From Isoptericola jiangsuensis (GTDB taxonomy: Bacteria; Actinomycetota; Actinomycetes; Actinomycetales; Cellulomonadaceae): a stretch of 64,000 nucleotides of DNA. Where the stretch lies: positions 248,001 through 312,000 of the forward strand of contig NZ_PDJJ01000001.1 of the NCBI RefSeq assembly GCF_002563715.1, written 5' to 3'. The stretch's first letter is position 1; each line of letters opens with the position of its first letter. The position numbers and the translations under genes are program-made. Of the stretch, positions 10,458-27,133 are shown piece after piece. A model generated the notes under the pieces. It was given only the letters and a program-made list of their open reading frames with translations, searched no databases and was not told where the DNA came from.

Positions 10458-11600
10458 TCAGGCGAGCCGGTGCACGTCGTCGGTGGGGAGCTGTTCCCAC
10501 CAGCGGCGGTACCGGCCGAACACGGCCGGTTCCCGGTCGGCGAGGAACGTGCGCAGCGCGGCGGCCTCGGCCTCCAGCGCGCGCAGGTCGTCGCGGCCGA
10601 CGGGTTCGAACAGGGCGGCGTCGACGCCGTCGTCGGTGGCGCGCCACACCCCGACGACGTGCCCGTCCACGAGCACCGTGGGCAGGGTGTCGCCGTTGCG
10701 GCGGATGACGTGCCGCCGGTGGGCCTCGGGCAGGACGCGGGTGCGGTCCGCGTGCGCGAGCAGCACGGAGTCCCACATGCCGAGGAGCCGCGGCGGGGCG
10801 GGGGTGGCGGCGTCGGGGCGCGGGGCGTCGGGCAGGTCCCACAGCGTGGTGCGGCCGGAGCCGCCCACGGGCACGAGCTCGTCGCGCAGCGCGGCGAGGG
10901 CGGGCCCGGTGAACGGGCGGCGCAGCATGGTGAACTGGCCGAGGTCGGCCTCGGTGGCGGGTCCGAACGCCGCGAGGTAGCGCCGTGCGAGGTGCACGAC
11001 GGCGGGGTCGTCGCCGGGCGGTGGGGCGTCCGCGGCGGTGGTGGCGCCCGCCCGGTAGTGCCGCCGGGTCGGGGTGTACGACCAGGGCGGTCCGGTGGGC
11101 ACGTGGTGCAGCGGCGCGAGGGTGCGTAGCGCGAACCAGGCGGCCGGGGCGCGGTCGGCGTCGAGGAGCCGCGTCAGCTCGGCCAGGATCTCGTCCTGGG
11201 TGCGGGGCCGGGCCGCGAAGGCGAGCAGGGCGTCGCGCACGTCGTCGGCCTCGGCGGGCGTCAGGCGGGCCGGGGCGAACCGGCGGTCGTTGAGCCGGGA
11301 TCCGCGCAGCGGGTCGGTGACGGCGCGGTGGAACGGCGCCCAGTCGTCGGCGTGCACGGCGTGCAGCGTGATCCGCAGGAGCGTGGACCGCACGAGCGTG
11401 CCGCTGGTGAAGGCGTCGTCGAGGTCGGCGGGGTCGAACCCGGCGACCCGGTTCCAGAGCGCGAGGTAGGGCGCGGCGGGCTCCTGCGCCTGGACGGCGC
11501 CGACGGCGCGCACGACGTCGGGCACGGGCAGGCGGGCCCGTTCCAGCAGGTGCTGGCGGGCGAGCGTCGCGCGGCCGAGGGCCGCGGGCGAGGCGTCCAC
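10458..11600 (-). CDS. Winged-helix (HTH_42/AlkZ-like) DNA-binding protein
   Basis: 380 aa from the GTG at 11600. That start is supported by TTGCGA-N17-CACAGT ending 7 nt before it. An ATG 36 nt further upstream would lie inside this promoter. The protein belongs to the HTH_42 superfamily (YcaQ/AlkZ-like): ARQHLLER, VRAVGAVQAQEPAAPYLALW, GTLVRSTLLRITLHAVHADD, and the C-terminal MWDSVLLAHADRTRVLP and VLVDGHVVGVW. AlkZ members unhook interstrand crosslinks as DNA glycosylases and often protect producers of azinomycin-like agents. Whether this relative is a glycosylase cannot be decided by eye. Confidence 0.8.
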   Translation of the reverse strand: MDASPAALGRATLARQHLLERARLPVPDVVRAVGAVQAQEPAAPYLALWNRVAGFDPADLDDAFTSGTLVRSTLLRITLHAVHADDWAPFHRAVTDPLRGSRLNDRRFAPARLTPAEADDVRDALLAFAARPRTQDEILAELTRLLDADRAPAAWFALRTLAPLHHVPTGPPWSYTPTRRHYRAGATTAADAPPPGDDPAVVHLARRYLAAFGPATEADLGQFTMLRRPFTGPALAALRDELVPVGGSGRTTLWDLPDAPRPDAATPAPPRLLGMWDSVLLAHADRTRVLPEAHRRHVIRRNGDTLPTVLVDGHVVGVWRATDDGVDAALFEPVGRDDLRALEAEAAALRTFLADREPAVFGRYRRWWEQLPTDDVHRLA

Positions 11601-11698
11601 GTGCCCGACTGTGCCGTGCCGTGGACGGCGTCGCAATGGTCGTCCCGGGAGATGTCGGCACCGAGACGAAGATTTGATGCCGGAGAGCCGACATTTGC

Positions 11699-11733: not shown

Positions 11734-12945
11734 ATGGTCAACGACGACTCCCGCACGCCGCCGCGACGACGCACCGGCCTGTGGTTCCTCGGCGCCCGCG
11801 GCTCCGTCGCCACGACGGCCACGCTCGGCGCCCTCGCCCTCGCGCGCGGCCACGCGCCCACGACCGGCCTGGTCAGCGAGCTCCCCGACGTCGCCCGCGC
11901 CGGGCTCGTCGGCGTCGACGAGCTCGTCGTCGGTGGTCACGACGTCGCCGGCAGCATCGTGGAGCGCGCCCACGAGCTCGCGGCCTCCGGTGTCGTGCCC
12001 GCCGCCACCGTCGCCGCGCTGGCCGACGACCTCGCCACCGTCGACGCCCGCGTCCGGCCCGGCGCCAGCGGCACGGCCGACCGCGCCACCGCCGACCGCC
12101 TCCAGGCCGACATCGAGGCGTTCCGCGCCGAGCACGACCTGGAGCGGGTCGTCGTCGTCGACGTCTCCAGCACCGAGCCGCCCGCCCCGGACGCCCACGC
12201 CCTGACGCTCACCGAGCTCGAGCGCCGCCTCGACGACGGCACGGCGCCGCTGCCGGCGTCGTCGCTGTACGCGTACGCCGCGTTCCGCGCCGGCAGCCCC
12301 GTGGTGTGCTTCACGCCGTCCACCGGCCCGCGGATCCCCGCGCTGGAGGAGCTCGCCAAGACGCTGCACCTGCCGTGGGCGGGGCGCGACGGGAAGACGG
12401 GCGAGACCCTGCTCAAGGCGACGCTCGCGCCGATGTTCGCGACCCGTGCCCTGGCGGTGCGGTCGTGGTCGGCGTTCAACATCCTCGGCGGCGGGGACGG
12501 CCGCACGCTGGCGGACCCGGCCGCGGCCGCGAGCAAGACGGCCACCAAGGCGATGACCGTCGAGGCGGTGCTCGGCTACCCCGTCGAGGGCCCGGTGCGC
12601 ATCGACCACGTCGCGGACCTGGGCGACTGGAAGACCGCGTGGGACCACGTGACGTTCGACGGGTTCCTCGGCACCCGCATGCGCATGCAGGTGACGTGGG
12701 AGGGCTGCGACTCCGCGCTCGCCGCGCCGCTCGTCCTCGACCTGGCCCGCCTGGTCGCCCGGGCCCACGAGGTCGGCGTCACCGGCCCGGTCGGGGAGCT
12801 CGGGTTCTTCTTCAAGGACCCCGTGGGCAGCGCCGAGCACGCGCTGGCCGCGCAGTGGCAGACGCTGACCCGGTGGTGCGCCGGGCTCGGCGACGCCGCA
12901 CGGGCCGACGGGCACGCCGGGGTCGCGCCCCACGGTGCCGCATGA
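11734..12945 (+). CDS. myo-inositol-1-phosphate synthase-like sugar-phosphate cyclase, first gene of the ebo-type operon
   Basis: 403 aa. NAD-binding Rossmann motif FLGARGSVATT (residues ~16-26), SSTEP, then the catalytic core AGRDGKTGETLLKATLAPMF, SWSAFNILGGGDG, HVADLGDWKTAWDHV and FLGTRMRMQVTWEGCDS (positions ~210-335), matching the MIPS family. MIPS converts glucose 6-phosphate to inositol 1-phosphate with enzyme-bound NAD+. Location at the head of an ebo-type operon, where the dehydroquinate-synthase-like cyclase EboD normally is, suggests a dedicated cyclitol-forming step rather than housekeeping inositol supply. The stop overlaps the eboC start (ATGA). Confidence 0.88.
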   Translation: MVNDDSRTPPRRRTGLWFLGARGSVATTATLGALALARGHAPTTGLVSELPDVARAGLVGVDELVVGGHDVAGSIVERAHELAASGVVPAATVAALADDLATVDARVRPGASGTADRATADRLQADIEAFRAEHDLERVVVVDVSSTEPPAPDAHALTLTELERRLDDGTAPLPASSLYAYAAFRAGSPVVCFTPSTGPRIPALEELAKTLHLPWAGRDGKTGETLLKATLAPMFATRALAVRSWSAFNILGGGDGRTLADPAAAASKTATKAMTVEAVLGYPVEGPVRIDHVADLGDWKTAWDHVTFDGFLGTRMRMQVTWEGCDSALAAPLVLDLARLVARAHEVGVTGPVGELGFFFKDPVGSAEHALAAQWQTLTRWCAGLGDAARADGHAGVAPHGAA

Positions 12946-13784
12946 GGTGGCGTGACGCCGCCGAGCTGGTCCGCCTGCCCGCCGCGCTGACCGTCCCCGG
13001 GGACTCGCTGGCGGGCGCCGCCGCGGCGGGCTGGCCGTGCGGGGCCCGGACGGCGGCCCTGCCCGTGGCGTCGGCCTGCCTGTACTGGGCGGGCATGGCC
13101 CTCAACGACTGGGCGGACCGCGACCTCGACGCCACGGAGCGCCCGGAGCGACCCATCCCCTCGGGGCGGGTGCGGCCCGGCGAGGCGCTCGCCCTCGCCG
13201 GGGGGCTCACCGCGGCGGGGCTCGGCGCGGCCGCCGTCGCCGGACGCCGTCCCCTCGGGGTGGCCGCGGCGCTGGCCGCGACGGTCTGGGCGTACGACGT
13301 CGTCGCGAAGCCCACCCCGGCCGGTCCGGCCGTCATGGCCACGACACGGTTCCTCGACGTCCTCATGGGTGCCGCCGGTCGGCGGGCCGGCCTGGTCCCC
13401 GCCACCGTCATGGGTGCGCACACCCTGGCCGTGACGGCCGTCAGCCGCGGGGAGGTGCACGGCACGACCCCCGACCAGGGCCGGGCCGCGGTCGCCACGA
13501 CCGTCGCCGCCGCCGCGGGCGCCGCCCTGGCGCCGGGCCGGGTCCGGGTGCCCGTGGTCGCGCTGGCCGCGACCTACGCCGCCGCCGTCCTGCCCGCGCA
13601 GGCCGACGTGGTCCGCCGCCCCGACGCCGCCACGGCCCGCCGGGCGACGGGCGTCGGCATCCGCGGCATGGTGCCGCTCCAGGCCGCGCTGCTGGCCGGG
13701 CACGGCGCGGTCGCCGCCGCGGTGGGGCTGCTCGCCGCGGTACCGCTGGCCCGGCTCGGCGCGCGGGCGGTGAGCCCCACGTGA
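12942..13784 (+). CDS. eboC: EboC-like UbiA-family prenyltransferase
   Basis: 280 aa, very hydrophobic, about eight membrane segments. The first Asp-rich motif reads NDWADRDLDATERPERP (residues ~54-70), the N-D-x-x-D-x-x-D Mg2+/diphosphate site of UbiA enzymes. The second motif is degenerate: around residues 200-225 the family Asp cluster appears only as PAQADVVRRPDAATARRATG (partial). UbiA enzymes move a polyprenyl group onto an acceptor in the membrane. In ebo clusters EboC is thought to prenylate or anchor the metabolite or its carrier. Coupled by overlap on both sides (ATGA and GTGA). Confidence 0.82.
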   Translation: MRWRDAAELVRLPAALTVPGDSLAGAAAAGWPCGARTAALPVASACLYWAGMALNDWADRDLDATERPERPIPSGRVRPGEALALAGGLTAAGLGAAAVAGRRPLGVAAALAATVWAYDVVAKPTPAGPAVMATTRFLDVLMGAAGRRAGLVPATVMGAHTLAVTAVSRGEVHGTTPDQGRAAVATTVAAAAGAALAPGRVRVPVVALAATYAAAVLPAQADVVRRPDAATARRATGVGIRGMVPLQAALLAGHGAVAAAVGLLAAVPLARLGARAVSPT

Positions 13785-14671
13785 TCACGCTCGGATACGG
13801 CACCAACGGGTTCGCCGACCACCGCCTGGAGGACTGCCTCGCCCTGCTGGCGGACCTCGGCTACGGCGGGGTCGCGCTCACGCTCGACCACATGCACCTC
13901 GACCCGCTGGCCCCCGGTCTCGCGCGACGCACCGAGCGGGTCGCGGCGCTGCTGGCGCGGCACGGGCTGGGCGTCGTGGTGGAGACGGGCGCCCGCTACG
14001 TGCTCGACCCGCGGCGCAAGCACGAGCCCACCCTGGTGTCGGACGAGGGGCGGGAGCGCCGCGTCGACCTGCTCGCCACGGCCGTGCGGGTCGCCACCGA
14101 CCTCGGCGCCCCCGCCGTGCACCTGTGGTCGGGCGTGCTGCCCGCCGGCACGTCGTCCGCCACCGGGTGGGACCGGCTGGTGGCCGGGACGGCGGACGTG
14201 CTCGGGCACGCCGAGGCCGCGGGGGTCGACCTCGCGTTCGAGCCCGAGCCGGGCATGCTCGTCGAACGGGTCGGGGACCTCCTGCGGCTGCGCACCGCGC
14301 TCGGCGACCCCGACCGCCTGCGCCTGACCATCGACGTCGGGCACCTGACGTGCGTCGAGACCGAGCCGGGCCCGGACGTGATCCGCGCCGCCGGGGCGCT
14401 GGTGGCGCACGTGCAGGTGGACGACATGCTCCCCGGCGTGCACGAGCACCTCGAGCTCGGCACCGGCGAGGTCGACCTGCCCGGCGTGCTGACCGCCCTC
14501 GACGAGGTGGGCTTCGACGGGCTCGCGTCGGTCGAGCTGCCCCGCCACTCGCACGCCGCCGCCCGGCTGGCGCGCTCCAGCATGTCCGCGCTGCGCGACG
14601 CCGCAGCCACCGCGAGGGTGCGCGTGCGCCCCCGCGCGACCGTCCACGACGAGGTGGGGGTGACCGGATGA
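13781..14671 (+). CDS. Sugar-phosphate isomerase/epimerase (xylose-isomerase-like TIM barrel)
   Basis: 296 aa from the GTG at 13781 overlapping the eboC stop. It has an AP-endonuclease-2/IolE-type TIM barrel: GYGTNGFADHRLEDCLALL, GVALTLDHMHLDPL, APAVHLWSG, LAFEPEPGMLVE, LRLTIDVGHLTC, VAHVQVDDMLPGVHEHLELG, GFDGLASVELPRHSH. Metal ligands expected on the barrel (Glu in FEPEP, Asp/His in DVGH, His in HVQVDD, Glu in SVELPRHSH) are present. The IolE/IolI relatives act on inosose-type cyclitols, which fits a MIPS-like first gene. It is an addition to the classical ebo set. Confidence 0.82.
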   Translation: MITLGYGTNGFADHRLEDCLALLADLGYGGVALTLDHMHLDPLAPGLARRTERVAALLARHGLGVVVETGARYVLDPRRKHEPTLVSDEGRERRVDLLATAVRVATDLGAPAVHLWSGVLPAGTSSATGWDRLVAGTADVLGHAEAAGVDLAFEPEPGMLVERVGDLLRLRTALGDPDRLRLTIDVGHLTCVETEPGPDVIRAAGALVAHVQVDDMLPGVHEHLELGTGEVDLPGVLTALDEVGFDGLASVELPRHSHAAARLARSSMSALRDAAATARVRVRPRATVHDEVGVTG

Positions 14672-15258
14672 CCCCGGTACGCACGACGCTCGACCCGGCC
14701 GCGGAGGAGCGGCTCGCCGGGCTGGAGGAGGAGGTCCGGGCCGACCCGGGCACCGTGGCACGGGCGTTCGCCCGCGCCGCGCGCGTGGTGGGCCGCGGCC
14801 CCGGACCCGACGGCCTGCCGGTGCAGGACGTCGCCCGGGTGCGGCTGCTCGTCGCCGCGACGCGGGGCGCCGGGCCGGACGGCGCCGCCGCCGTGGCCGC
14901 CGAGCTGTACCGCACGGGCGACGCCGACGAGCGTCGCGCCGTCCTGCTCGCCCTGGAGGCGCTCGACGTCGGCGACCGGGCGGTCCCGCTGCTGCTCGAC
15001 GCGCTGCGCACCAACGACTCCCGGCTGGTGGCCGCCGCCATGGGCCCGTCCGCGGCCGCGCACCTGCCGGCCGACGCGTGGCGCCACGGCGTCCTCAAGT
15101 GCCTGTTCACGGGCGTGCCGCTCGCCGTCGTCGCGGACCTGACCGCCCGCCGCGACGCCGAGCTCGACCGCATGGTCGCCGCGTACGCCGCCGAGCGGCG
15201 TGCCGCCGGGCGGGACGTCCCCGACGACGCCCTCGCGCTGCTCGCCACCACCCCCTGA
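14668..15258 (+). CDS. eboA: EboA-domain protein
   Basis: 196 aa, largely helical, Ala/Arg-rich. It contains the HEAT-like pattern of EboA proteins: DVARVRLLVAATRG, DERRAVLLALEAL, AVPLLLDALRTNDSRLVAAAMGP and WRHGVLKCLFTGVPL (positions ~60-155). No catalytic motif is visible and the biochemical role of EboA is unknown. The name comes from the conserved ebo cluster. It starts at an ATG overlapping the upstream stop. It ends before a palindromic element that splits the operon, so eboB downstream has its own ribosome-binding site. Confidence 0.82.
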   Translation: MTPVRTTLDPAAEERLAGLEEEVRADPGTVARAFARAARVVGRGPGPDGLPVQDVARVRLLVAATRGAGPDGAAAVAAELYRTGDADERRAVLLALEALDVGDRAVPLLLDALRTNDSRLVAAAMGPSAAAHLPADAWRHGVLKCLFTGVPLAVVADLTARRDAELDRMVAAYAAERRAAGRDVPDDALALLATTP

Positions 15259-15264
15259 CCCCGT

Positions 15265-15321
15265 CGAGCGTCTCTGAAAGTCAGGAATCGACGGCTGATG
15301 CCGGACTTTCAGAGACGCTCG
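15265..15321. repeat. 57-bp palindromic element, copy 2, inside the ebo-type operon
   Basis: Perfect 18-bp arms (CGAGCGTCTCTGAAAGTC and reverse complement) around a 21-nt loop. Geometry and 17 of 18 arm bases match the copy at 1648-1704. It lies between eboA and eboB, the only gap in an otherwise overlapping operon. As RNA it would form a strong hairpin that could partially terminate or protect the transcript and so alter eboA/eboB ratios. Confidence 0.85.
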
Positions 15322-15348
15322 GCCCCCGACCCGCAAGGAGGCGGACCC

Positions 15349-16236
15349 GTGCGCATCTTCGACCCGCACATCCACATGACGTCCCGGACCACCGACGACT
15401 ACGAGGCGATGCGCGACGCCGGGGTGCGCGCGCTCGTCGAGCCCGCGTTCTGGCTCGGCCAGCCCCGCACCTCGGTCGGCTCGTTCGTCGACTACTTCGA
15501 CGCGCTGCTCGGCTGGGAACGGTTCCGGGCCGCGCAGTTCGGGATCGTGCACCACGCGACGATCGCCCTCAACCCCAAGGAGGCGAACGACCCGCGCTGC
15601 CACGGCGTGCTCGACCTGCTGCCCCGCTACCTGGAGAAGGACGGCGTGGTCGCGGTCGGCGAGACCGGGTTCGACTCGATGACGCAGGACGAGGAGCGGG
15701 TGTTCGTGCGCCAGCTCGAGCTCGCCGGGGAGCACGACCTGCCGGTGCTCGTCCACACCCCGCACCGGGACAAGGCGGCGGGCACGCGCCGCACGCTGGA
15801 GATCGTCGCGCAGGTCGGCGTCGCGCCGGAGATGGTCGTGGTGGACCACCTCAACGAGGTGACCGTGGACGTCGTCGACGACGCCGGCTGCTGGGCCGGG
15901 TTCTCGGTCTACCCGGACACCAAGATGGACGAGGGTCGCATGGTGGAGATCCTGCGCCGCCGCGGCCTGGAGCGCGTGCTGGTCAACTCGGCCGCGGACT
16001 GGGGCCGCTCGGACCCGCTGAAGACGTGGCGGACCGGGCGGGCGATGCTCGCCGCCGGGTTCACCGACGACGACGTCGACCGGGTCCTGTGGCGCAACCC
16101 GGTCGAGTTCTACGGCCAGAGCGGGCGCCTGCTGCTCGACGCGGACGAGGCCGCCGGTTCGTCCGGCGCGTCCGGTGAGTACCAGGGCAACTCGGTGCGC
16201 CGCGGCGAGCCCGTCATCCCCGCCGGGCAGGCCTGA
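15349..16236 (+). CDS. eboB: EboB-like TatD-family metal-dependent hydrolase
   Basis: 295 aa from the GTG at 15349, chosen because AAGGAGG lies 7-8 nt upstream. An in-frame ATG at 15298 would start inside the palindromic loop. Amidohydrolase-fold metal ligands: FDPHIHM (HxH near the N-terminus), VAVGETGFDS, LPVLVHTPHRDK, MVVVDHLNE and the late Asp in NSAADWGRSDPL. TatD relatives are hydrolases or nucleases. In ebo clusters EboB is proposed to act on the trafficked metabolite. It is followed by eboE after one base. Confidence 0.85.
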   Translation: MRIFDPHIHMTSRTTDDYEAMRDAGVRALVEPAFWLGQPRTSVGSFVDYFDALLGWERFRAAQFGIVHHATIALNPKEANDPRCHGVLDLLPRYLEKDGVVAVGETGFDSMTQDEERVFVRQLELAGEHDLPVLVHTPHRDKAAGTRRTLEIVAQVGVAPEMVVVDHLNEVTVDVVDDAGCWAGFSVYPDTKMDEGRMVEILRRRGLERVLVNSAADWGRSDPLKTWRTGRAMLAAGFTDDDVDRVLWRNPVEFYGQSGRLLLDADEAAGSSGASGEYQGNSVRRGEPVIPAGQA

Positions 16237-16237
16237 C

Positions 16238-17413
16238 ATGCGGTTCCGGCACCCCGACGGCACCCTGCTGCACGTCTCGTACGGCACGAACGTCCACCCC
16301 GCGCAGGACACGGACGGCCTGCACGACCAGCTCCGCCGGTTCGCCGGTCCCGTGCGCCGCCGCCTCGACGTCGACCGGCTCGGGCTCGGCCTGTGGCTCC
16401 CCGCCCGCGCGGTGCACGAGCTCGCGGCCGACCCGGGCCGCGCCGACGACCTGCGGGCCGCCCTCGACCGCGAGGGCCTGGAGGTCGTGACCGTCAACGC
16501 GTTCCCCTTCGGCGACTTCCACGCCCCCGTGGTGAAGAAGGCGGTCTACCTGCCGGACTGGACGGACGACGCACGCCTCGACTACACGCTCGACGCGGCC
16601 CGCGTGCTGGCCGCGCTGCTGCCCGACGACGTCGACCGCGGCAGCATCAGCACCCTCCCGCTGGCCTGGCGCGACCCCTGGGACGCGGGCCGCGCCGCCG
16701 CCGCCCGCGACCGGCTCGACCGGCTCGCGGACGGCCTCGCGAAGGTCGAGGCCGACACCGGGCGGAGCGTCCGGGTCGCGTTCGAGCCCGAGCCGGGGTG
16801 CGTCGGCGAGACCGCGACGGGACTCGCCGAGCACCTGGCCGGCGTCGACGCGGGACGCCTCGGCGTCTGCCTCGACCTGTGCCACCTCGCCTGCGAGTTC
16901 GAGGACCCGGCCGCGGCGCTGGCCGCCGTCGCGGGGGCCGGGCTCGACGTCGTCAAGACGCAGGTGTCCGCCGCCCTGCACTGCCCGGACCCGCGCGACC
17001 CGGCGGCGCTGGCCGCGCTGGAGGAGTTCGTCGAGGCGCGGTTCCTGCACCAGACGCGGGTGCTGCGCGACGGTGGCGTGGTGCGCTGCGACGACCTGCC
17101 CGACGCCCTCGGTCGCACGGGTGCTCCCGGGCTGCCGACGGACGGGCCGTGGCGCGTGCACGTGCACGTCCCGCTGCACGCCCGGCCCCGTGCGCCCCCG
17201 GCGAGCACGACGGACGTGCTCGGCGACGCCCTCGACCGGCTGGTGGGCGGGCCGCACCCGCTGGTCGACCACCTGGAGACCGAGACGTACACGTGGTCGG
17301 TGCTGCCCGAGGACCTGCGCCCCGTCGACGACGACGGGCTCGTGGTGGGCATCGCGGCCGAGCTCGACTGGACCCGGGGGCAGCTCGTCGCCCGGGGGAT
17401 GGAGGCGCTGTGA
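16238..17413 (+). CDS. eboE: EboE-like TIM-barrel metabolite traffic protein
   Basis: 391 aa. The opening HVSYGTNVHPAQDTDGL and LGLGLWLPARAVHEL, then VVTVNAFPFGDFHAPVVKKAVYLPDW (split) and FEPEPGCV, CLDLCHLACEFEDP, are the EboE pattern, an AP-endonuclease/xylose-isomerase-like barrel. The C-terminal third (WRVHVHVPLHARP, DHLETETYTWSVLPEDLR) is also conserved in the family. Reaction unknown. It starts at the ATG one base after the eboB stop. Its own stop overlaps the following GTG. Confidence 0.87.
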   Translation: MRFRHPDGTLLHVSYGTNVHPAQDTDGLHDQLRRFAGPVRRRLDVDRLGLGLWLPARAVHELAADPGRADDLRAALDREGLEVVTVNAFPFGDFHAPVVKKAVYLPDWTDDARLDYTLDAARVLAALLPDDVDRGSISTLPLAWRDPWDAGRAAAARDRLDRLADGLAKVEADTGRSVRVAFEPEPGCVGETATGLAEHLAGVDAGRLGVCLDLCHLACEFEDPAAALAAVAGAGLDVVKTQVSAALHCPDPRDPAALAALEEFVEARFLHQTRVLRDGGVVRCDDLPDALGRTGAPGLPTDGPWRVHVHVPLHARPRAPPASTTDVLGDALDRLVGGPHPLVDHLETETYTWSVLPEDLRPVDDDGLVVGIAAELDWTRGQLVARGMEAL

Positions 17414-18840
17414 ACCGGCTGCTCGTCCTGGACGTCGTGGGGCTGACTCCCCGCCTGCTGGAGCACATGCCGCGCCTGCGCGCGGTGGCGGAGGGCGGGT
17501 CGCGGGCGGGCCTCGGCACGGTGCTGCCCGCGGTGACCTGCTCGGTGCAGGCCACGTTCCTCACCGGGCTCCTGCCCCGTGACCACGGGATCGTGGGCAA
17601 CGGCTGGTACTTCCGCGACCTCGGCGAGCCGCTGCTGTGGCGCCAGCACCACGGCCTGGTCGCGGGGGAGAAGGTGTGGGAGACGATCCGGCGGGAGCGG
17701 CCCGGGTACCGGGTCGCGAACGTCTGCTGGTGGTACGCGATGGGGTCCACCGCGGACACCACGGTGACGCCCCGGCCCGTCTACCACGCGGACGGGCGCA
17801 AGGACCCGGACTGCTGGACGTGGCCGCCGTCCCTGCACGACGAGCTCGTCGAGCGGCACGGGCCGTTCCCCCTGTTCACGTACTGGGGCCCGACGGCGGG
17901 CATCGCGTCGTCGCGGTGGATCGTCGCGGCGGCCCGGGACCTGATGCCGGACCACGACCTCACGCTGGTGTACGTGCCGCACCTCGACTACGCCCTGCAG
18001 CGGTTCGGCCCGGACGCCCCGCAGGCGGCGGCCGCCGCGCGCGAGGTCGACGAGGTGCTCGCCCCGCTGCTGGACGACGCCGCCCGCACGGGCACCACGG
18101 TGGTGGCGCTCAGCGAGTACGGCATCACGCCGGCCCGCCGCCCGGTGGACGTCAACCGGGTGCTGCGCCGCGAGGGGCTGCTGCACGTGCACCACAACGC
18201 GACCGGCGAGCTGCTGGACCCGTGGACGTCGCGCGCGTTCGCGGTGGCCGACCACCAGGTCGCGCACGTCTACGTGCCCGACCCGGCCGACCGTGACCGT
18301 GTGGCCGAGCTGCTGGCCGCGACGGACGGCGTGGCCGAGGTCCTGGACGACGCCGGCAAGGCGGAGCACGGTCTGGACCACGACCGGGCGGGCGACCTCG
18401 TGCTCGTCGCGGAGCCGGACGCCTGGTTCACGTACTACTACTGGCTCGACGACGCCGTGGCACCCGACTTCGCGCGGTCCGTCGAGATCCACAAGAAGCC
18501 CGGCTACGACCCCGCCGAGCTGTTCTGGGACCCGGCCGACCGGTGGGCGAAGGCCCGGGCGGTGGCCCACGTGGCGCGCAAGAAGCTGGGGCTGCGCTCG
18601 ACGATGCGGGTGGTGCCGCTCGACCCGTCGCCCGTGGGCGGCTCGCACGGCCGTCTCCCGGCGGACCCGGCCGACGGGCCGGTGCTGCTGTGCTCGGACC
18701 CGGTGGGCCTGCCGGAGCACGTCCCCGCGACGCAGGTGCGGGACCTGCTGGTGGGGCTCGCGACGGGCGTCAGCCGGCCGGTACCGCCTCCGGAGCCGGT
18801 GCGGGCGTCGGCAGGACGAGGGGCGTCACGGGACGGGTGA
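17410..18840 (+). CDS. eboF: EboF-like alkaline phosphatase/phosphodiesterase
   Basis: 476 aa, nucleotide pyrophosphatase/alkaline phosphatase superfamily: LLVLDVVGLTPRLLEHMP, catalytic-threonine region LPAVTCSVQATFLTGLLPRDHGIVGNGW (split), SEYGITPARRPVDVN, FAVADHQVAHVYVPD. Metal ligands Asp/Thr/Asp/His are in place. This class cleaves phosphomonoesters or diesters and closes the ebo operon here. The last ~70 bp overlap the convergent ROK gene, whose 3' end is read on the other strand. The C-terminal Pro/Arg/Gly tail is probably not conserved. Confidence 0.85.
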   Translation: MNRLLVLDVVGLTPRLLEHMPRLRAVAEGGSRAGLGTVLPAVTCSVQATFLTGLLPRDHGIVGNGWYFRDLGEPLLWRQHHGLVAGEKVWETIRRERPGYRVANVCWWYAMGSTADTTVTPRPVYHADGRKDPDCWTWPPSLHDELVERHGPFPLFTYWGPTAGIASSRWIVAAARDLMPDHDLTLVYVPHLDYALQRFGPDAPQAAAAAREVDEVLAPLLDDAARTGTTVVALSEYGITPARRPVDVNRVLRREGLLHVHHNATGELLDPWTSRAFAVADHQVAHVYVPDPADRDRVAELLAATDGVAEVLDDAGKAEHGLDHDRAGDLVLVAEPDAWFTYYYWLDDAVAPDFARSVEIHKKPGYDPAELFWDPADRWAKARAVAHVARKKLGLRSTMRVVPLDPSPVGGSHGRLPADPADGPVLLCSDPVGLPEHVPATQVRDLLVGLATGVSRPVPPPEPVRASAGRGASRDG

Positions 18841-19993
18841 GCAGCCCCGGCGTCGCGAACGCGTGCTCGATGGCGAGCCACGCGCCGCCGAGCGAGCCCG
18901 CGCTCGCCCCCGTCCGGCTGGTCGTGACGCGCAGGTTCTGCGTGGCCAGCGGCAGGGGCCGCGCGTAGACGACCTCCCGGATCCCGGCGACGAGGTGCTC
19001 GCCGACGCGCGCCATCGACCCGCCCACGACGATGGCGGACGGGTTGAGCAGGCTGACGCAGGACGCGAGGACGGCGCCCACGGCCCGGCCCGCGTCGCGG
19101 ACGGCGTTCGCGGCGACGGGCGACCCGCCGCGCACGAGCTCCACGATGTCGTCGTTCGTGACGGCGTCGACGCCCTGCGTGCGCAGCCGCGCGGCGACGG
19201 CCGCGCTGCCGGCGATGGCCTCCAGGCAGCCGGTGTTGCCGCACGTGCAGGGGACGGGGTCGCCGCCGGGGACGGCGACGTGCCCGAGGTCGCCCGCGCT
19301 GCCCTGCGCCCCGCGGTGGACGCGGCCGTCGGCGATGATGCCCGCCCCGATGCCGGTGGCGATCTTGACGAACAGCAGGTGGCCGACGTGGGGGAGGGCC
19401 GAGGAGTGCTCGGCGAGCGCCATGAGGTTGACGTCGTTGTCGACGAGCACGGGAGCGCTCCCAAGGCGGGTGTGCAGGTGACCCGCGACGTCGTGGCCGT
19501 CCCACCCGGGCATGATCGGCGGCTTGGTGGGGCGACCCGTGGCGTGGTCGACGGGACCGGGCAGGCCGACGCCGACGCCGGCGAGGTCCGCGAGGTCCCG
19601 GTCGGCGCGGTCCAGGAGGTCGTGCAGGACGTCGACGACCTGGTCGAGGACGGGGCCGGGGCCGCTGGCGATCCGTAGCTCGACGCGGTGGGCCAGGATC
19701 TCGTGGGCGGCGAGGTCGGTGAGCACGATGCGCGCGTGGGTGGCGCCCAGGTCGACGCCGGCGACGATGCGGGCGCCGGGGTCGAACGCGAAGGTGCTGG
19801 CGGGCCGGCCGCCGGTGGACCCGGCGTCTCCGGTGGGGGTGACCAGGCCGAGGGCGAGCAGGTCGTCGACGCGGGTCGACATGGTGGACCGGGAGACGCC
19901 GATCTCGCGGGCGAGCTGCGCCCGCGTGCGGGGCCGGCCGTCGCGGAGCGCGCGGAGCACGGGTGTGAGGTCGTCGTACACCGGCGTCGTCAT
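18770..19993 (-). CDS. ROK-family transcriptional repressor
   Basis: 407 aa from the ATG at 19993. An upstream in-frame TTG at 20005 is less likely. Winged helix at residues ~10-60 (RAQLAREIGVSRSTMSTRVDDLLALGLV), then the ROK sugar-kinase-like fold with GVDLGATHARIVLTDL, GVGVGLPGPVD, DNDVNLMALAEH, and the zinc-binding CTCGNTGCLEAIA (~236-248). ROK repressors release DNA on binding a sugar or sugar phosphate. It lies between the ebo-type operon and the secreted dehydrogenase unit, whose promoters look alike, and is the obvious candidate regulator of both. Its 3' end overlaps the phosphodiesterase gene by 71 bp. Confidence 0.9.
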   Translation of the reverse strand: MTTPVYDDLTPVLRALRDGRPRTRAQLAREIGVSRSTMSTRVDDLLALGLVTPTGDAGSTGGRPASTFAFDPGARIVAGVDLGATHARIVLTDLAAHEILAHRVELRIASGPGPVLDQVVDVLHDLLDRADRDLADLAGVGVGLPGPVDHATGRPTKPPIMPGWDGHDVAGHLHTRLGSAPVLVDNDVNLMALAEHSSALPHVGHLLFVKIATGIGAGIIADGRVHRGAQGSAGDLGHVAVPGGDPVPCTCGNTGCLEAIAGSAAVAARLRTQGVDAVTNDDIVELVRGGSPVAANAVRDAGRAVGAVLASCVSLLNPSAIVVGGSMARVGEHLVAGIREVVYARPLPLATQNLRVTTSRTGASAGSLGGAWLAIEHAFATPGLLTRPVTPLVLPTPAPAPEAVPAG

Positions 19994-20058
19994 GGGACCA
20001 GTCAACCACGTTCGACCACCCGTGACGCGTTAACTGGTAGCGAGTTGACGTCTTTTGC

Positions 20059-20400: not shown

Positions 20401-23400
20401 GTGAATTCTAGGCGTTCACGGCTCGTCGCCGCCCTCGCGGCGGCCACGGTGGCCCTCGCGATACCCGTCACGGCCGCGGCCCACGACGGCATCGACCACG
20501 GGACCGAGGAGGGCGCCGAGGCGGCGCTCGACTGGTCCAACTACGAGAAGATCCTGCTGACCAAGGACGTCGGCGAACCGATCGGCATGTCCGTCATGCC
20601 CGACGGCAGCGTGCTGCACAGCGCTCGCAACGGCGACATCCGGCACACCGACCCGGCGACCGGCGTCACCAGGATCGTCAACACCATCGACGTGTACGCC
20701 AACTCCGAGGACGGCCTGCAGACGGTCACGCTCGCCCCCGACTTCGAGGAGTCCGGCTGGGTGTACCTGTACTACGCGCCGCGGGTCATGGAGGGCGACG
20801 CCTACCCGACCACCACGCCGACCGGCTCGGCCCCCAACTCGCTGCCCGCCGGCGAGGACGCCTCCTACTGGGACCAGTGGCTGGGCTACAACCAGCTCAC
20901 GCGCGTCCAGTGGGACGCCGACGCCGAGGCGCTCGACCTGAGCACCGAGCAGGTCATCCTCCAGGTCGAGGTCCAGCGCGGCCAGTGCTGCCACGTGGGT
21001 GGTGACGTCGACTTCGACGCCGAGGGCAACGTCTACCTGTCGACCGGCGACAACACCCCGGCCAGCACGCCCGGTGCCAACGGGTTCGCCCCGAACAACA
21101 ACGCGCCGGGCATGAACCCCGGGTTCGACTCGCGGCGCGGCGCCGGCAGCACCAACGACCTGCGCGGCGCGATCCTGCGCGTCACCGTCCAGGACGACGG
21201 CAGCTACACGATCCCCGAGGGGAACCTCTTCGAGCCGGGGACCGAGGGCACGCGCCCGGAGATCTTCGTCATGGGCCTGCGCAACCCGTTCCGGATCGAC
21301 GTCGACGACGCCACCGGGGCCGTGAGCTGGGGCGACTACGGTCCCGACTCCGGCACGGCGAGCGCGGAGCGCGGCCCGATGGGCTACGTCGAGTGGCAGA
21401 GCACCACGGTGCCGCTCAACGGCGGCTGGCCGTACTGCCACGGCCCGAACGCGAACTACAACGAGTGGGACTTCGCCACCGCGACGCCGGGCCCGTGGTT
21501 CGACTGCGAGGCGGGCGCGGAGAACAACTCCACGTGGAACACCGGCCTCGACGTCCTGCCGCCGGCGACGGCCCCGCAGGTCTACTACGGCGACAACCCG
21601 GGCGACCAGCCGTTCGACGAGTTCGTGACGTTCGACGCGCAGGGCGGGCAGGGCCCGATGGGCGGCCCGACCTTCACCTACGACCCGGAGGGCCCGGACA
21701 CCCAGTGGCCCGAGTACTGGGACGGCAAGGCGTTCTTCTACGAGTTCTCCCAGGACTACATCGCCGCGCTGACCGTCCCGGATCGTGACGGCCCGGTGAC
21801 GCACGTCGAGCAGGTGCTGCCCAACGCGGCGCTGCGCGACAACGTCCAGGCGATCACCGACAGCCCGATCGACATGGAGTTCGGCCCCGACGGCTCGCTC
21901 TACATCCTCGACTACGGCAACGGCTTCTTCCGGCAGAACCCGGAGGCCGGCCTCTACCGCGTCGACTACGCCGAGGGCAACAAGTCGCCGACGGCCGTCA
22001 TCGCCGCGGACCAGATCTCGTCCTCCGAGGCGCCGCTGACCGTCAACCTCGACGGCTCCGGCTCATCCGACCCCGAGGGCGGCGAGCTCACCTACTCCTG
22101 GGACCTCGACGGTGACGGGACGTTCGACGAGACCGGCGTGCAGGTGACCACCACCTACACCGAGCTCGGCCAGTACACGGTGCGCCTGCGCGTCACCGAC
22201 CCGGCCGGCCGCACGGGCCTCACCTCCCGCAAGATCACCGTCGGCAACGTGGCGCCCACCCTGTCCGCGGACGCGCCGCCGAACGGCGGGTTCTTCGGCT
22301 GGGGCGACGCCGTGCCGTACTCGTTCAGCACGACCGACCCCGAGGACGGCACCGCGACGGTGTGCTCGAACGTGTCCTGGACCTTCGGGCTGGGCCACGA
22401 CACGCACGCCCACCCCGAGGTGCTCGGCAGCGGCTGCTCGGGCGCCTGGGCCACCCCGGTCGACGCGCCGGAGCACGGCGTGACGGAGAAGCTGTTCGGC
22501 GTCGTCGTCGCGACCTACACCGACCGCGGCAACGGTGACATCCCGCCGGCCTCCGACGAGGTCTCCCTGATCCTCAACCCGTTCACGCAGGAGGCCGAGC
22601 ACGCCGACACCCTGTCCGGCGTGGAGGTCGTCCAGGACGACACCGCGGGCGGCCTGTCCAAGGTCGTCTCGTTCGACGCCGGTGACCACCTCGCCTACGA
22701 CCCGGTGAACTTCTCCGGGATCGACGGCGTCGAGGTCCGCGGCTCCGGCGACGGCACGATCGCGCTCCGCTGGGGCTCGGCCGACGCCGAGCCGTTCGCC
22801 ACCGCCGAGATCTCCTCGGCCGGCTGGTCCGCGGTCCAGGCGGACGTCACGGCGTTCCCCGAGGGCACCGGCGAGCTGTTCGTCACGTCCACCGGGGGCG
22901 TCGAGCTCGACACCCTGACGTTCCAGGGCGACGGCGTCACCGACATCACCGCCCCGGAGGTCGGGCACACCCTCAACCCGGCGCAGCCCACCGGGGACAA
23001 CGGCTGGTACACCGGCGCCGTGAACCTCGGCATCGTGTTCACCGACAACGGCACGATGGCGAGCGCCGAGTACTCGTTCGACGGCGGGCAGACGTGGGCC
23101 AACTTCCCGTACTTCCCGCAGTTCAACTTCCTCGGGACGGCGACGATCTCCGGCGACGGCGTCCACGAGGTCCTGTACCGGGCCACGGACACCGGCGGGA
23201 ACGTGTCCGAGGTCGGCTCGGTGACGGTGCGCATCGACGGCACCGACCCCGAGGTCGCCGTGACCGGCGTGGCGGACGGCGACGAGCCCGGCTCGTCGCA
23301 GACCGTCGACCTCGGCGTCGAGGCCACCGACGCGACGTCCGGCGTCGCGTCGTCGGGCCTCACCCTCGACGGCGAGGCGGTCGAGCCGGGCGAGCTCGAC

Positions 23401-23721
23401 CTGTGGACGCTGGACCTCGGCGAGCACGTGCTCGTCGCGACCGCCACCGACGAGGCCGGCAACTCGACCGAGACCACCGTGACGTTCACCGTCACGACCT
23501 CCGTCGAGGACCTCGCCGCCCACGTCGACCGGCTCCGCGCCGACGGTGCCCTGACGAAGGCCGAGGCCGCCCGCCTCGACGCCTTCCTCGGGCAGGCCAC
23601 GCGTCACCTGGCCGCCGGCCGGGACGCCCAGGCCGCCGCCGCGCTGGAGAAGTTCGCCGCTGCGACCGACGAGGAGGTGCTCGTCCGCGACGCCCAGGCG
23701 ATCGTCGCGGAGCTCGGCTGA
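20401..23721 (+). CDS. Secreted PQQ-type sugar dehydrogenase with PKD, CBM6-like, Ig-like and FIVAR-like modules
   Basis: 1106 aa, GTG start after GAAGGGGAG. Signal peptide LVAALAAATVALAIPVTAAA. Residues ~45-525 form the glucose/sorbosone dehydrogenase beta-propeller (GQCCHVGGDVDFDAEGNVYL, VMGLRNPFRIDVD, DSPIDMEFGPDGSLYILDYG). Residues ~530-615 are a PKD domain (NLDGSGSSDPEGGELTYSWD), then an Ig-like region. Residues ~735-845 resemble CBM6 (EAEHADTLSG, GDHLAYDPVNFSGIDGVEVR). OmpL47/Ig-like repeats follow, then a helical FIVAR-like end (LAAHVDRLRADGALTKAEA). Probable role: oxidation of a polysaccharide-associated sugar outside the cell. A hairpin terminator follows. Confidence 0.88.
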   Translation: MNSRRSRLVAALAAATVALAIPVTAAAHDGIDHGTEEGAEAALDWSNYEKILLTKDVGEPIGMSVMPDGSVLHSARNGDIRHTDPATGVTRIVNTIDVYANSEDGLQTVTLAPDFEESGWVYLYYAPRVMEGDAYPTTTPTGSAPNSLPAGEDASYWDQWLGYNQLTRVQWDADAEALDLSTEQVILQVEVQRGQCCHVGGDVDFDAEGNVYLSTGDNTPASTPGANGFAPNNNAPGMNPGFDSRRGAGSTNDLRGAILRVTVQDDGSYTIPEGNLFEPGTEGTRPEIFVMGLRNPFRIDVDDATGAVSWGDYGPDSGTASAERGPMGYVEWQSTTVPLNGGWPYCHGPNANYNEWDFATATPGPWFDCEAGAENNSTWNTGLDVLPPATAPQVYYGDNPGDQPFDEFVTFDAQGGQGPMGGPTFTYDPEGPDTQWPEYWDGKAFFYEFSQDYIAALTVPDRDGPVTHVEQVLPNAALRDNVQAITDSPIDMEFGPDGSLYILDYGNGFFRQNPEAGLYRVDYAEGNKSPTAVIAADQISSSEAPLTVNLDGSGSSDPEGGELTYSWDLDGDGTFDETGVQVTTTYTELGQYTVRLRVTDPAGRTGLTSRKITVGNVAPTLSADAPPNGGFFGWGDAVPYSFSTTDPEDGTATVCSNVSWTFGLGHDTHAHPEVLGSGCSGAWATPVDAPEHGVTEKLFGVVVATYTDRGNGDIPPASDEVSLILNPFTQEAEHADTLSGVEVVQDDTAGGLSKVVSFDAGDHLAYDPVNFSGIDGVEVRGSGDGTIALRWGSADAEPFATAEISSAGWSAVQADVTAFPEGTGELFVTSTGGVELDTLTFQGDGVTDITAPEVGHTLNPAQPTGDNGWYTGAVNLGIVFTDNGTMASAEYSFDGGQTWANFPYFPQFNFLGTATISGDGVHEVLYRATDTGGNVSEVGSVTVRIDGTDPEVAVTGVADGDEPGSSQTVDLGVEATDATSGVASSGLTLDGEAVEPGELDLWTLDLGEHVLVATATDEAGNSTETTVTFTVTTSVEDLAAHVDRLRADGALTKAEAARLDAFLGQATRHLAAGRDAQAAAALEKFAAATDEEVLVRDAQAIVAELG

Positions 23722-23831: not shown

Positions 23832-24779
23832 GTGAAGATCACCACCAAGACCCGTCGCATCCTGGCCACGTCCGCCCTCGGCGCCGTGCTCGCCGCCGGC
23901 GCCTTCGCCGCCGGTCCCGCCAGCGCCGTGCCCGAGCACCCCCACGCCGACGACTACCCCGGCCAGGGCCAGGGCCGGACCCTCCCGGCCAACAAGGTCG
24001 GCATCCAGCTGTTCAGCTACCTCGGCTGGCAGTCCCAGATCGGCATCGACGGTGTCCTCGACGAGCTCGAGGACGTCGGCCTGCGCAACGTGGAGCCGTT
24101 CGGCAACCCGGGGAGCTTCGGCTCCTACGGGAGCTACACCGCCGGGGAGTTCCGCGGCGAGCTGCGCGACCGCGGCATCAAGGCGCCCAGCTCGCACGGC
24201 AGCGTCGACGAGGCGACGTTCGACACCACCCTGCAGAACGCCAAGGACCTCGGGCAGAAGTTCGTCGGGTCCGGCGGCTTCGCGGCCCCCGGCATCCAGG
24301 GGGGCTACGACAACGTGGTCGCCACCGCCGAGACGATGAACCGGCTCGGCGAGCGCTCGGTGAAGAACGGCACCGGCAAGTTCTTCGGCCACAACCACGC
24401 GGGCGAGTTCCAGACGATGTACACGGACCCGGAGACGGGTGAGCTGAAGAGCGCCTGGCACATCCTCGAGGAGCACACCGACCCGCGCTACGTCGCGTTC
24501 GAGGTGGACGTCTACTGGGCCACCGCCGCGGGCGTCGACGTCGTCGACCTCCTGAACACGTACGGCGACCGGATCGACCTGCTCCACATCAAGGACGGCC
24601 ACGCCCCGTTCACCCGGGCCACCCTCACCGACGTCGGCGAGGGCGACATCGACTGGGCCCCGATCCTGCGGGCCGCCCACGGCAAGGTCGACTTCTACAT
24701 CCTGGAGCGCGACGGCGCCCCGAGCGACGTCGAGTTCGCGCAGGACAGCTTCGAGTACCTGACGAACCTGCGTTACTGA
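23832..24779 (+). CDS. Secreted sugar-phosphate isomerase/epimerase-type TIM-barrel protein
   Basis: 315 aa, GTG start behind GAGGAGGAACCCTC. Signal peptide RRILATSALGAVLAAGAFAA ending ASA. The barrel follows: VGIQLFSYLGWQSQIGIDGV, LRNVEPFGNPGSFGSYG, FFGHNHAGEFQTMY, RYVAFEVDVYWATAAGVDVV, DLLHIKDGHAP, VDFYILERDGA. The Glu/Asp/His metal-site pattern of xylose-isomerase-like enzymes is kept. Secreted members commonly neighbour ThuA or glucose/sorbosone dehydrogenase genes. Partnership with the upstream dehydrogenase on an extracellular sugar is likely. Confidence 0.87.
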   Translation: MKITTKTRRILATSALGAVLAAGAFAAGPASAVPEHPHADDYPGQGQGRTLPANKVGIQLFSYLGWQSQIGIDGVLDELEDVGLRNVEPFGNPGSFGSYGSYTAGEFRGELRDRGIKAPSSHGSVDEATFDTTLQNAKDLGQKFVGSGGFAAPGIQGGYDNVVATAETMNRLGERSVKNGTGKFFGHNHAGEFQTMYTDPETGELKSAWHILEEHTDPRYVAFEVDVYWATAAGVDVVDLLNTYGDRIDLLHIKDGHAPFTRATLTDVGEGDIDWAPILRAAHGKVDFYILERDGAPSDVEFAQDSFEYLTNLRY

Positions 24780-25632: not shown

Positions 25633-25699
25633 CGCGCGCCGGACGGCACCGACCGTGCCAGCATCGACGCAGGGCACGAGGCGACCGGACGGGGTGACG

Positions 25700-27133
25700 G
25701 TGACCGACGAGGCGACGAGGACGGCGGGGACCAAGGTCTCGCCCGTCACGCTCACCGCGATGGTGGTCGGCTCGATGGTGGGCGCGGGCGTGTTCTCGCT
25801 GCCGGCCCGGTTCGCCGGCGAGACGGGGGTCGCGGGCGCCCTGGTCGCGTGGGTGATCGCCGGGGCGGGCATGTACACGCTCGCGCTGGTGTTCCAGCGG
25901 CTCGCGATGCGGCGCCCCGACCTCGACGCCGGGGTGTACGCCTACGCCAAGGCGGGGTTCGGGGAGTACACGGGCTTCTTCTCCGCGGCGGGCTACTGGG
26001 CGAGCGCCTGCGTCGGGAACGTCACCTACTGGGTGCTCATCATGTCGACGCTGGGGCAGTGGGTGCCGGCGCTCGGGGAGGGCGACACCGTCCTGGCGAT
26101 GGCGTGCTCGACCGTCGGGCTGTGGGGGTTCTTCCTGCTGGTGCGTCGCGGGGTGCGGGAGGCGGCCGCCATCAACCGCGTCGTCACCGTCGCGAAGGTC
26201 ATCCCCATCCTCGTGTTCGTGCTGCTCGCGATCTTCGCGTTCGACCCCGAGGTGTTCGCCGCGAACTGGGGCGGCGAGGCGTACGGCTCCCTGTTCGACC
26301 AGGTCCGCGCCACCATGCTGGTCACCGTGTTCGTGTTCCTCGGCGTCGAGGGCGCGAGCGTCTACTCCCGGCACGCGCGCCGCCGCGAGGACGTCGGCCG
26401 CGCCACGATCCTCGGGTTCGTCTCCGTCCTGTGCGTGTTCGCGTCCGTGACGATCGTGTCGTACGGCATCCTGCCCGTCGGGGAGATCGCCGGGCTGCGG
26501 CAGCCGTCGATGGCGGGCGTCCTGGAGGCCGCCGTCGGGTCGTGGGGCGCCGTGTTCGTCAGCGTCGGGCTGATCGTGTCGGTGCTGGGCGCCTACCTCG
26601 CCTGGACCCTCATGGCCGCGGAGGTCATGTACGTGGCCGCGAAGGACCGCGACATGCCGCGGTTCCTCGCCCGTTCCCGCGACGACGTCCCCGTCAACGC
26701 GCTGCTGCTGTCCACCGCGCTGTCCCAGGTGATCCTGGTGCTGACGTACTTCTCCGCGGACGCGTTCGACTTCGCCCTCGACCTCACGGCGTCGATGACG
26801 CTCGTCCCGTTCCTGCTCGCCGCGGCCTACGCGCTCAAGCTGCGCGCCACCCGCGAGACGTACGACGGCGCACCCGCCCGGACGCTGCGCGGCGACCTCG
26901 TCGTCGCCGTGCTGGCCACCGCGTACACCGCGTTCCTGCTGTACGCCGCCGGGCTCACCTACCTCCTGGTGTCCCTCGTCATCTACGCCCCCGCGACCGT
27001 CCTGTTCGCCATGACCCGGCGCGAGCAGGGCCGGCGCGTCTTCACCCCGGCCGAGCTGGTGCTGTTCGTCGTCGTCGCGGCGGGCGCCGTCGTCGGCGTC
27101 GTGGCGCTGGTGGCCGGGTGGATCGAGCTGTGA
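25700..27133 (+). CDS. arcD: Arginine:ornithine antiporter (ArcD-type APC transporter)
   Basis: 477 aa from the GTG at 25700. About 13 membrane segments, APC-superfamily opening [23 protein letters not shown] (split), [48 protein letters not shown] and [16 protein letters not shown], as in basic amino acid/ornithine antiporters. It exchanges external arginine for ornithine in the arginine deiminase pathway. The arcA gene begins 22 nt downstream, which supports the assignment. Ornithine carbamoyltransferase and carbamate kinase are not next to it. Confidence 0.88.

Follow-up and report, generated by a model that had tools for sequence, protein, structure and literature searches.

What takes the place of EboD in an ebo operon that lacks it? 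The question is raised by a stretch of 64,000 nucleotides from Isoptericola jiangsuensis (contig NZ_PDJJ01000001.1, positions 248,001–312,000; referred to here in its whole length as the window), in which seven genes at positions 11734–18840 of the forward strand recall the operon eboA-F of eustigmatophyte plastids, Bacteroidetes and cyanobacteria (PMC5133447, PMC6282210). As in the operons described there, EboA, EboB, an EboC-type protein, EboE and EboF are encoded. Unlike in those operons, genes for a cyclase of the myo-inositol-phosphate synthase (MIPS) family and for a TIM barrel protein are added, EboD is missing from operon and genome alike, the EboC falls under the EboC cut-off and belongs to the sister family SCO3242, and the gene order is different. 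EboD has very probably been replaced by the MIPS and the TIM barrel together, and we lean towards regarding the locus as a real and recurrent MIPS-type variant of the ebo operon and not as the classical one, EboD having been looked for and not found.

The first-pass annotation had read the region as seven genes, most of them overlapping, and all seven frames are open. The operon begins with the MIPS-like cyclase (11734–12945), placed in the archaeal-type MIPS family by two Pfam domains (NAD_binding_5, 138.2 bits; Inos-1-P_synth, 104.5 bits). It is followed by an EboC-type UbiA membrane protein (12942–13784); a xylose-isomerase-like TIM barrel with a predicted sugar 3-epimerase fold, which is treated below as the partner of MIPS (13781–14671; AP_endonuc_2, 131.0 bits); EboA (14668–15258; NF035938 EboA domain, 154.2 bits, cut-off 50); the TatD/amidohydrolase-like EboB (drawn at 15298–16236; TatD_DNase, 55.8 bits); EboE, a larger xylose-isomerase-like TIM barrel (16238–17413; NF035939, 400.6 bits, cut-off 250; 49.4 bits in Pfam); and EboF, which combines the fold of a type I phosphodiesterase and an altered metal site (17410–18840; PF01663, 209.3 bits). 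The EboA and EboE profiles thus match the very frames to which these names had been given in advance, and the IolE-like TIM barrel, TatD and phosphodiesterase calls agree with the Pfam matches. The EboC call stood in part: the protein belongs to the SCO3242 family of UbiA prenyltransferases (NF045897, 352.8 bits, cut-off 260) but reaches only 128.8 bits with the EboC equivalog model NF035940 (cut-off 250). Four of the six junctions are four-base overlaps (12942–12945, 13781–13784, 14668–14671 and 17410–17413), an arrangement like that of operons with translational coupling; EboB and EboE are separated by 1 base, and EboA and EboB, as drawn, by 39.

The closest solved relative of the cyclase was the MIPS of Archaeoglobus fulgidus, 1u1i (223 bits over residues 16–384), while 1gr0, which we take to be the Mycobacterium tuberculosis enzyme, scored 23.5 bits. 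An alignment of 20 sequences shows no variation at five lysines, K221, K268, K272, K300 and K361, presumably the catalytic lysines of MIPS; at the residues aligned with two of them, K272 and K361, the A. fulgidus entries 3qvw and 3qvx carry Ala. Both domains and the lysines expected of a MIPS are therefore present. The mycothiol Ino1 enzymes belong to the same broad family, yet their model TIGR03450 gave the operon cyclase 18.2 bits against a cut-off of 638. An Ino1 of that type lies elsewhere in the host genome (a single contig of 4.04 Mb), at 32.4 kb, with 714.8 bits (TIGR03450 was used as PF07994 misses mycothiol Ino1). The operon cyclase is thus a second, archaeal-type MIPS, and a housekeeping role for it in inositol supply was ruled out. 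Among the MIPS sequences compared it sits with other cyclases found beside ebo genes, in a distinct subfamily. In a tree of the window's MIPS with 47 of the 110 available rows, 1u1i not among them, 33 ebo-linked and haloarchaeal rows were split from 15 other MIPS rows with support of 100/100, and the 28 actinobacterial ebo rows formed one side of a branch supported at 98/97.

The distribution of the two cyclases was examined in 112 loci selected by EboE, made up of 18 loci from actinobacterial genomes, 14 plasmid loci (from 48 matching records) and the best 80 of 588 contig matches; these 80 are all actinobacterial by title and include no sample of EboD-type genomes. The profiles were built partly from sequences later scored with them. 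MIPS was found in 74 loci, EboD in eight and neither in 30, and no locus of the 112 had both. The mutual exclusion of EboD and MIPS, for which a survey of neighbourhoods had been suggested as a check, is thus borne out in these loci, as is the proposal that a non-homologous NAD-dependent cyclase of the MIPS family occupies the place expected for EboD, since EboD is absent here and MIPS leads the operon. The eight EboD loci come from Azospirillum, Ketogulonicigenium, Mycetohabitans, two Deinococcus, Salipiger, Roseivivax and Aureibacter, and none contained a MIPS within the stretch examined. The order of all seven genes in the window recurs in 69 of the 112 loci (with split hits merged and TIM barrel hits under 200 bits ignored), which makes the gene set more than a chance assembly.

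In a profile search of 296 actinobacterial genomes EboE was found in 18, in 17 of them over the cut-off. The MIPS profile A3 scored at least 512 bits in exactly those 17 genomes and at most 348 bits elsewhere, with up to six candidates scored per genome. Sequences from 15 of the 17 had gone into the profile, so their own scores are high by construction; the informative part is that nothing else exceeded 348 bits, and the subfamily is absent outside the ebo genomes of this set. EboD was not found in the host genome, where the only gene of the dehydroquinate synthase family, at 2.14 Mb, scored 157.7 bits with the EboD profile, and a hidden EboD elsewhere in that genome was thereby ruled out. Nor was EboD found in any of 31 EboE-bearing actinobacterial genomes, where the best score was 217 bits (members of EboD reach about 640 on their own profile).

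MIPS does not stand in for EboD alone, as the first-pass annotation had supposed. Of the 74 MIPS loci, 73 also encode the TIM barrel, and none of the eight EboD loci has a match to it of 200 bits or more, so that what was exchanged is better described as EboD against MIPS plus TIM barrel. The predicted model of the TIM barrel (mean predicted local distance difference test score, pLDDT, 96.2) is nearest in fold to UlaE, an L-xylulose-5-phosphate 3-epimerase (template modelling scores of 0.81/0.87), and to D-tagatose 3-epimerases. E154, D185 and E252 are kept in 100 of 100 sequences, and a fourth position is Gln in 95 and His in five; we take these four to be metal-ligand positions. The modelled fold is that of the sugar 3-epimerases, and the protein is a candidate epimerase.

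The same pair occurs in another setting. Plasmids of Roseomonas and Hymenobacter (L187 7638–16825 and L188 7797–16498) carry MIPS together with Gfo/Idh, YcaO-like, TIM barrel and PIG-L deacetylase genes, and their TIM barrel resembles that of the window (333–352 bits); in Hymenobacter bshB1 adjoins. This cluster is apparently unrelated to ebo, yet shares the pair, which supports MIPS and TIM barrel as a working unit. Yurchenko et al. (PMC5133447) mention, in a remark given without data, an actinobacterial EboA fused to a xylose-isomerase-like protein; this matches the TIM barrel that adjoins EboA here.

The 30 loci with neither cyclase are of several kinds. In 14 the upstream part is lost at a contig end, one (L039) is a broken draft, one (L044) has EboE alone and the remaining 14 are operons that begin with EboC. 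In the genomes of these last 14, MIPS was found elsewhere in 13 and a second EboE in 12, and in ten of the 13 the MIPS lies 2.5–4.3 kb from the second EboE. Two others (G299 and G300) carry the gene both as a fragment close to an EboE and, at another place, in fuller form; in G302 MIPS is on contigs without EboE. Because 13 of the 14 genomes carry MIPS elsewhere, these operons were set aside as counter-evidence, while the exceptions stand. Some MIPS matches contain a TGA (G300, G302, G050, G072 and G073), but in G050 and G072 this is the gene's own stop, overrun by the match, and nothing was drawn from it. Genes upstream of cyclase-less loci (e.g. L023 13912–16808) include, from a reading of the sequences, inositol-monophosphatase-like (seven loci), phytoene-desaturase-like (eight loci) and gamma-glutamyltransferase-like genes. 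No new cyclase was seen among the genes upstream of seven or eight of these loci.

The exchange is not local to actinobacteria, a similar arrangement being present, by profile matches, in one plasmid from Gemmatimonadota and three from haloarchaea. The plasmid of Gemmatirosa kalamazoonensis has EboC, EboF, EboB and EboE with a MIPS (520 bits) and a TIM barrel (410 bits), and neither EboD nor EboA was matched at this locus. A tree of EboB, EboF and EboC was built from 30 chosen loci and the window; the row L050 and the haloarchaeal branch are long in it, and seven rows, that of the window included, have an odd composition. In it the Gemmatirosa core groups with two Deinococcus cores of the EboD type (100/100), inside the EboD-type side (95/94). 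As this core belongs to the EboD lineage and is combined with a MIPS-type cyclase, the simplest account would be that EboD was replaced by the MIPS-TIM pair.

Further plasmid records with MIPS were examined for six of 60 rows listed, four of them haloarchaeal and three of those with an ebo-like context, and for one more (H6). In Halobaculum, Natronococcus and Halocatena (L183 5103–11653, L185 4933–11606 and L186 5229–11530) one cluster contains matches to EboB (327–347 bits), EboC (192–194 bits), EboF (342–367 bits) and MIPS (464–472 bits) as well as two TIM barrels, which score 151–180 bits with the TIM profile and 32–40 bits with EboE. EboE, EboA and EboD were not identified in these three clusters.

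The other Ebo proteins were compared for residues that bear on function. EboC keeps the first UbiA motif, NDxxDxxxD (N55, D56, D59 and D63), in 98 of 99 sequences. No second DxxxD motif, presumably a feature of UbiA prenyltransferases, was found among columns more than 85% conserved; there is a single Glu, E171, in 98 of 99. The EboA of the window reaches 54.8 bits with the stricter family model NF035937, under its cut-off of 320. EboB has as its best solved relative AF_1765 (3guw, 97.7 bits), its HxH, E and H motifs are kept in 31 aligned sequences, and a single profile finds it in both MIPS-type and EboD-type loci. In EboE, E183, D213, Q242 and E349 are invariant in 112 of 112; its model (pLDDT 92.4) gave broad matches in a fold search, the nearest being sugar epimerases and isomerases with scores lower than those of the smaller TIM barrel, and the probable dehydroshikimate dehydratase AsbF stood at rank 5.

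The true start of EboB is probably the GTG at 15349, which is preceded by AAGGAGG at 15335–15341 and from which the frame reads VRIFDPHIHM, as in its relatives; the EboA-EboB spacer would then measure 90 bases. This spacer holds a strong hairpin (15265–15321) with 25-base arms that are 92% complementary and a fold z-score of −4.9. Of four other spacers examined, one, in a Streptomyces plasmid (L042 7940–8058), has an even longer hairpin with, by eye, the same GAAAGTC/GACTTTC core, and three have none. A relic of a small mobile element and an attenuator are candidate readings.

The residues of EboF (here and for the residue counts of EboC, EboE and the smaller TIM barrel the loci L039 and L044 were left out) speak against the dephosphorylation step that had been assigned to it. 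None of the 112 sequences departs from T43, D193 or H413, and T43 aligns with the nucleophile position of phosphonoacetate hydrolase, where the entries 3szy and 3t02 differ by a change of Thr to Ala. The positions H215, D250, H251 and D29 are, as we take it, canonical two-metal ligands of type I phosphodiesterases and phosphonoacetate hydrolase. At the H215 position (Q197 in the window) EboF has Gln in 110 sequences and Leu in two, at the D250 position (E236) Glu in all 112 and at the H251 position (Y237) Tyr in all 112. The first Asp (D29) is retained in 87 sequences and replaced by Asn in 13, by Cys in eight and by Leu in four; the alignment with PhnA is weak in its first part (11 bits). The two-metal ligand set is thus incomplete, with the Thr and one Asp retained, and three canonical ligand positions are replaced in 110, 112 and 112 of 112. 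The changes are the same in the MIPS, EboD and haloarchaeal types, the two Leu excepted, and so belong to EboF as such. Judged by these residues, dephosphorylation by EboF is doubtful. The remodelled site also bears on the functional guess of 2016, that of a hydrolase for a phosphate-bearing substrate.

The profile of EboD matches dehydroquinate synthases, 2-deoxy-scyllo-inosose synthase and 4p53, which we take to be a valiolone-type cyclase, and by sequence EboD is a sugar phosphate cyclase. MIPS retains the phosphate on its product. In contrast, sugar phosphate cyclases lose phosphate during the reaction (PMC5133447, section 3.7). What the two types share can therefore be a carbocycle derived from a sugar phosphate and not, as had been suggested from the swap, a phosphorylated cyclitol. 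The reaction needed to bridge EboD and MIPS would most naturally be ascribed to the TIM barrel. Its nearest folds, the 3-epimerases, need a ketone, so it would be expected to act either ahead of cyclisation or on a ring in its keto form.

In the pathway that we propose, MIPS, with NAD, would form an inositol-type ring from a sugar phosphate, of which glucose 6-phosphate is the simplest candidate, and the TIM barrel would epimerise either the sugar before closure or the keto form of the ring. That ring would then enter the same pathway that EboD feeds in classical operons, where EboC, in the membrane, would join it to a prenyl chain. EboB and EboE would modify the prenylated product, with EboA and the metal-site-altered EboF as accessory proteins. 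Prenyl transfer and epimerisation are plausible as steps. That MIPS acts on glucose 6-phosphate seems to us somewhat more likely than not; its relative 6k96, presumably Ari2, a five-membered-cyclitol-phosphate synthase, has a different ring product and is far more distant from the operon cyclase (44.5 bits) than archaeal MIPS, but the existence of such a relative means that the family does not settle the substrate. A prenylated cyclitol as the product falls a little short of an even chance. An isoprenoid-cyclitol was also what the authors who named the operon proposed (PMC5133447). Nostoc requires its ebo genes for scytonemin, whose monomer builds up inside the cells of each of the five single mutants tested, and the transfer of a precursor to the periplasm was proposed to depend on the genes (PMC6282210). 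By analogy a prenylated cyclitol may help to carry or anchor something at the membrane, though we think such a traffic role in actinobacteria somewhat improbable.

In its most general form, the proposal is that MIPS plus TIM barrel and EboD would be unrelated suppliers of the same type of keto- or polyhydroxy-ring to an ancient membrane pathway common to bacteria and haloarchaea, with prenylation by EboC and an EboF that, its canonical metal ligands lost, is no longer a phosphodiesterase. We put this forward only tentatively, as unlikely. The MIPS of this subfamily might hand its keto intermediate on to the TIM epimerase, and the MIPS-type product would then resemble that of EboD chemically.

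Several observations weigh against the reading of an exchange within one pathway. To our knowledge, no product or activity is known for any part of the operon in an actinobacterium. The EboD comparison set consists of eight plasmid loci, without cyanobacterial or Pseudomonas genomes. The 14 EboC-first operons with upstream sequence, 13 of them from Streptomyces, lack both cyclases, and one genome with such an operon (G305) has no EboD and no MIPS of this kind, only the mycothiol Ino1. One MIPS locus (L058) is without the TIM barrel, the Gemmatimonadota case is a single plasmid, and a fourth haloarchaeal MIPS (Halomarina, L184) groups with the ebo MIPS but lies outside an ebo context. Owing to the difference in phosphate, some additional reaction is required if both cyclases are to lead to one compound. 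Finally, the acceptors farnesylated by EboC homologues of the EboD type are quinoline carboxylic acids and not cyclitols (PMC9235831).

The genes around the operon were examined for associations among 116 loci. Convergent with the operon is a ROK-family regulator on the reverse strand (18770–20005; ROK, 192.5 bits, with a helix-turn-helix), which has relatives near 11 of the 116. Next on the forward strand is a glucose/sorbosone-dehydrogenase-type (GSDH) protein with PKD and CBM6 domains (20401–23721; GSDH, 89.9 bits; PKD_4, 58.1 bits; CBM_6, 35.3 bits), predicted from the look of its N-terminus to be secreted. Relatives were found near 42 of the 74 MIPS loci, none of the eight EboD loci and none of the 30 with neither cyclase, and the Natronococcus cluster has one nearby as well; the loci are related, unevenly sampled and in some cases cut by contig ends, and hence no probability is attached to these counts. 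The relative in L031, from the same class as the window organism, has additional ThuA and 3-keto-disaccharide hydrolase domains. A secreted GSDH partner would fit a traffic role like that in Nostoc, and a catabolic role is also possible. Beside it, also on the forward strand, is a further TIM barrel (23832–24779; AP_endonuc_2, 46.0 bits) with relatives near 33 of the 116 loci. Just upstream of the operon, on the opposite strand, lies an AlkZ-like DNA glycosylase (10458–11636) with no relative near the 116 loci, and farther downstream an arginine deiminase (27156–28421) adjoins an amino acid permease (25655–27133).

Some surroundings elsewhere deserve mention. In a Streptomyces camelliae plasmid a gene of the ScyD/ScyE family (L041 3221–4423) lies directly upstream of a MIPS-type operon, and weak relatives (68–72 bits) were found near L092 and L133; scyD and scyE are genes of the scytonemin cluster of cyanobacteria. 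Two Streptomyces plasmids carry either a whole MIPS-type operon (L042 1–18926) or a lone eboE (L044 1–15715) beside FAD-monooxygenase, amidase/glutamine-synthetase or type II polyketide genes, the last in L044, surroundings that to us look like kinamycin-type clusters.

Four other explanations of the operon were considered. MIPS-type and EboD-type operons might have a common tail but unlike products, with the core Ebo proteins modifying whatever cyclitol or polyol is supplied; the exchange would then carry no information on a common compound. The difference in phosphate and the extra enzyme of the MIPS type would both follow, and parts do vary, EboA being swapped for the unrelated EboG in some EboD-type operons (PMC5133447). 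EboB, EboE and EboF are conserved in both types, however, the last two with active-site residues that do not vary, and the position of the Gemmatirosa core inside the EboD lineage suggests that the core needed no change; we regard this explanation as unlikely. A different doubt, that MIPS is no more than an additional source of inositol whose gene has drifted to a place beside ebo genes able to work without a cyclase of their own, draws on the 14 cyclase-less operons and on G305 with its mycothiol Ino1. It appears quite improbable given that MIPS stands first in the seven-gene order conserved in 69 of 112 loci, that among the 296 genomes only those with ebo genes have it, and that it recurs beside ebo genes, in another order, in Gemmatirosa and haloarchaea.

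The remaining two change the direction of the pathway or its acceptor, and we consider each of them improbable. If the operon served the catabolism of keto-sugars or inositol, the secreted GSDH/ThuA/3-keto-hydrolase neighbour and the TIM barrels would process an external sugar, with MIPS and the Ebo proteins acting downstream. This would explain the GSDH relatives beside 42 of 74 MIPS loci against none of the 38 others, the ThuA and 3-keto-disaccharide hydrolase domains in L031, and the presence of Gfo/Idh in Ketogulonicigenium, a TIM barrel with a pyrroloquinoline quinone (PQQ)-type sugar dehydrogenase in Natronococcus, ThuA in Halocatena and, from a reading of the sequence, a Gfo/Idh-like gene in Gemmatirosa. 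Yet MIPS and UbiA are established biosynthetic families, 32 of the 74 MIPS loci are without GSDH (some of them cut by contig ends), and the ebo phenotypes described are the export of scytonemin monomer (PMC6282210) and the repelling of nematodes. The other possibility is that EboC prenylates an aromatic acceptor, to which the TIM barrels would dehydrate the cyclitol in the manner of dehydroshikimate dehydratases, AsbF being a match of the EboE model. UbiA enzymes usually prenylate aromatics. EboD-type EboC homologues made in Escherichia coli farnesylate quinoline carboxylic acids (quinaldic acids; PMC9235831). An inositol phosphate, though, is without the ketone needed for dehydration, MIPS is the sole oxidoreductase in the operon, and epimerases head the fold matches of both TIM barrels.

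Operons of this kind have been sequenced and annotated before. Three Streptomyces plasmids in which NCBI has annotated the SCO3242 family (NF045897) and an 'inositol-3-phosphate synthase' carry the same seven genes in the same order; this annotation names the genes singly, and neither the set nor the exchange of EboD is noted in it. SCO3242 and SCO3243 of Streptomyces coelicolor we take, partly from entries in two transcriptome tables, to be such genes. No description of a MIPS gene within an ebo operon was found in the open-access literature, subscription journals being mostly outside that coverage.

The ebo genes occur in algal plastids, in cyanobacteria and in a nematode-repelling Pseudomonas, and the exchange seen in Isoptericola narrows what the cluster may make. 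Two non-homologous ring-forming enzymes that swap in one operon provide independent support for a cyclitol at the start of the pathway.

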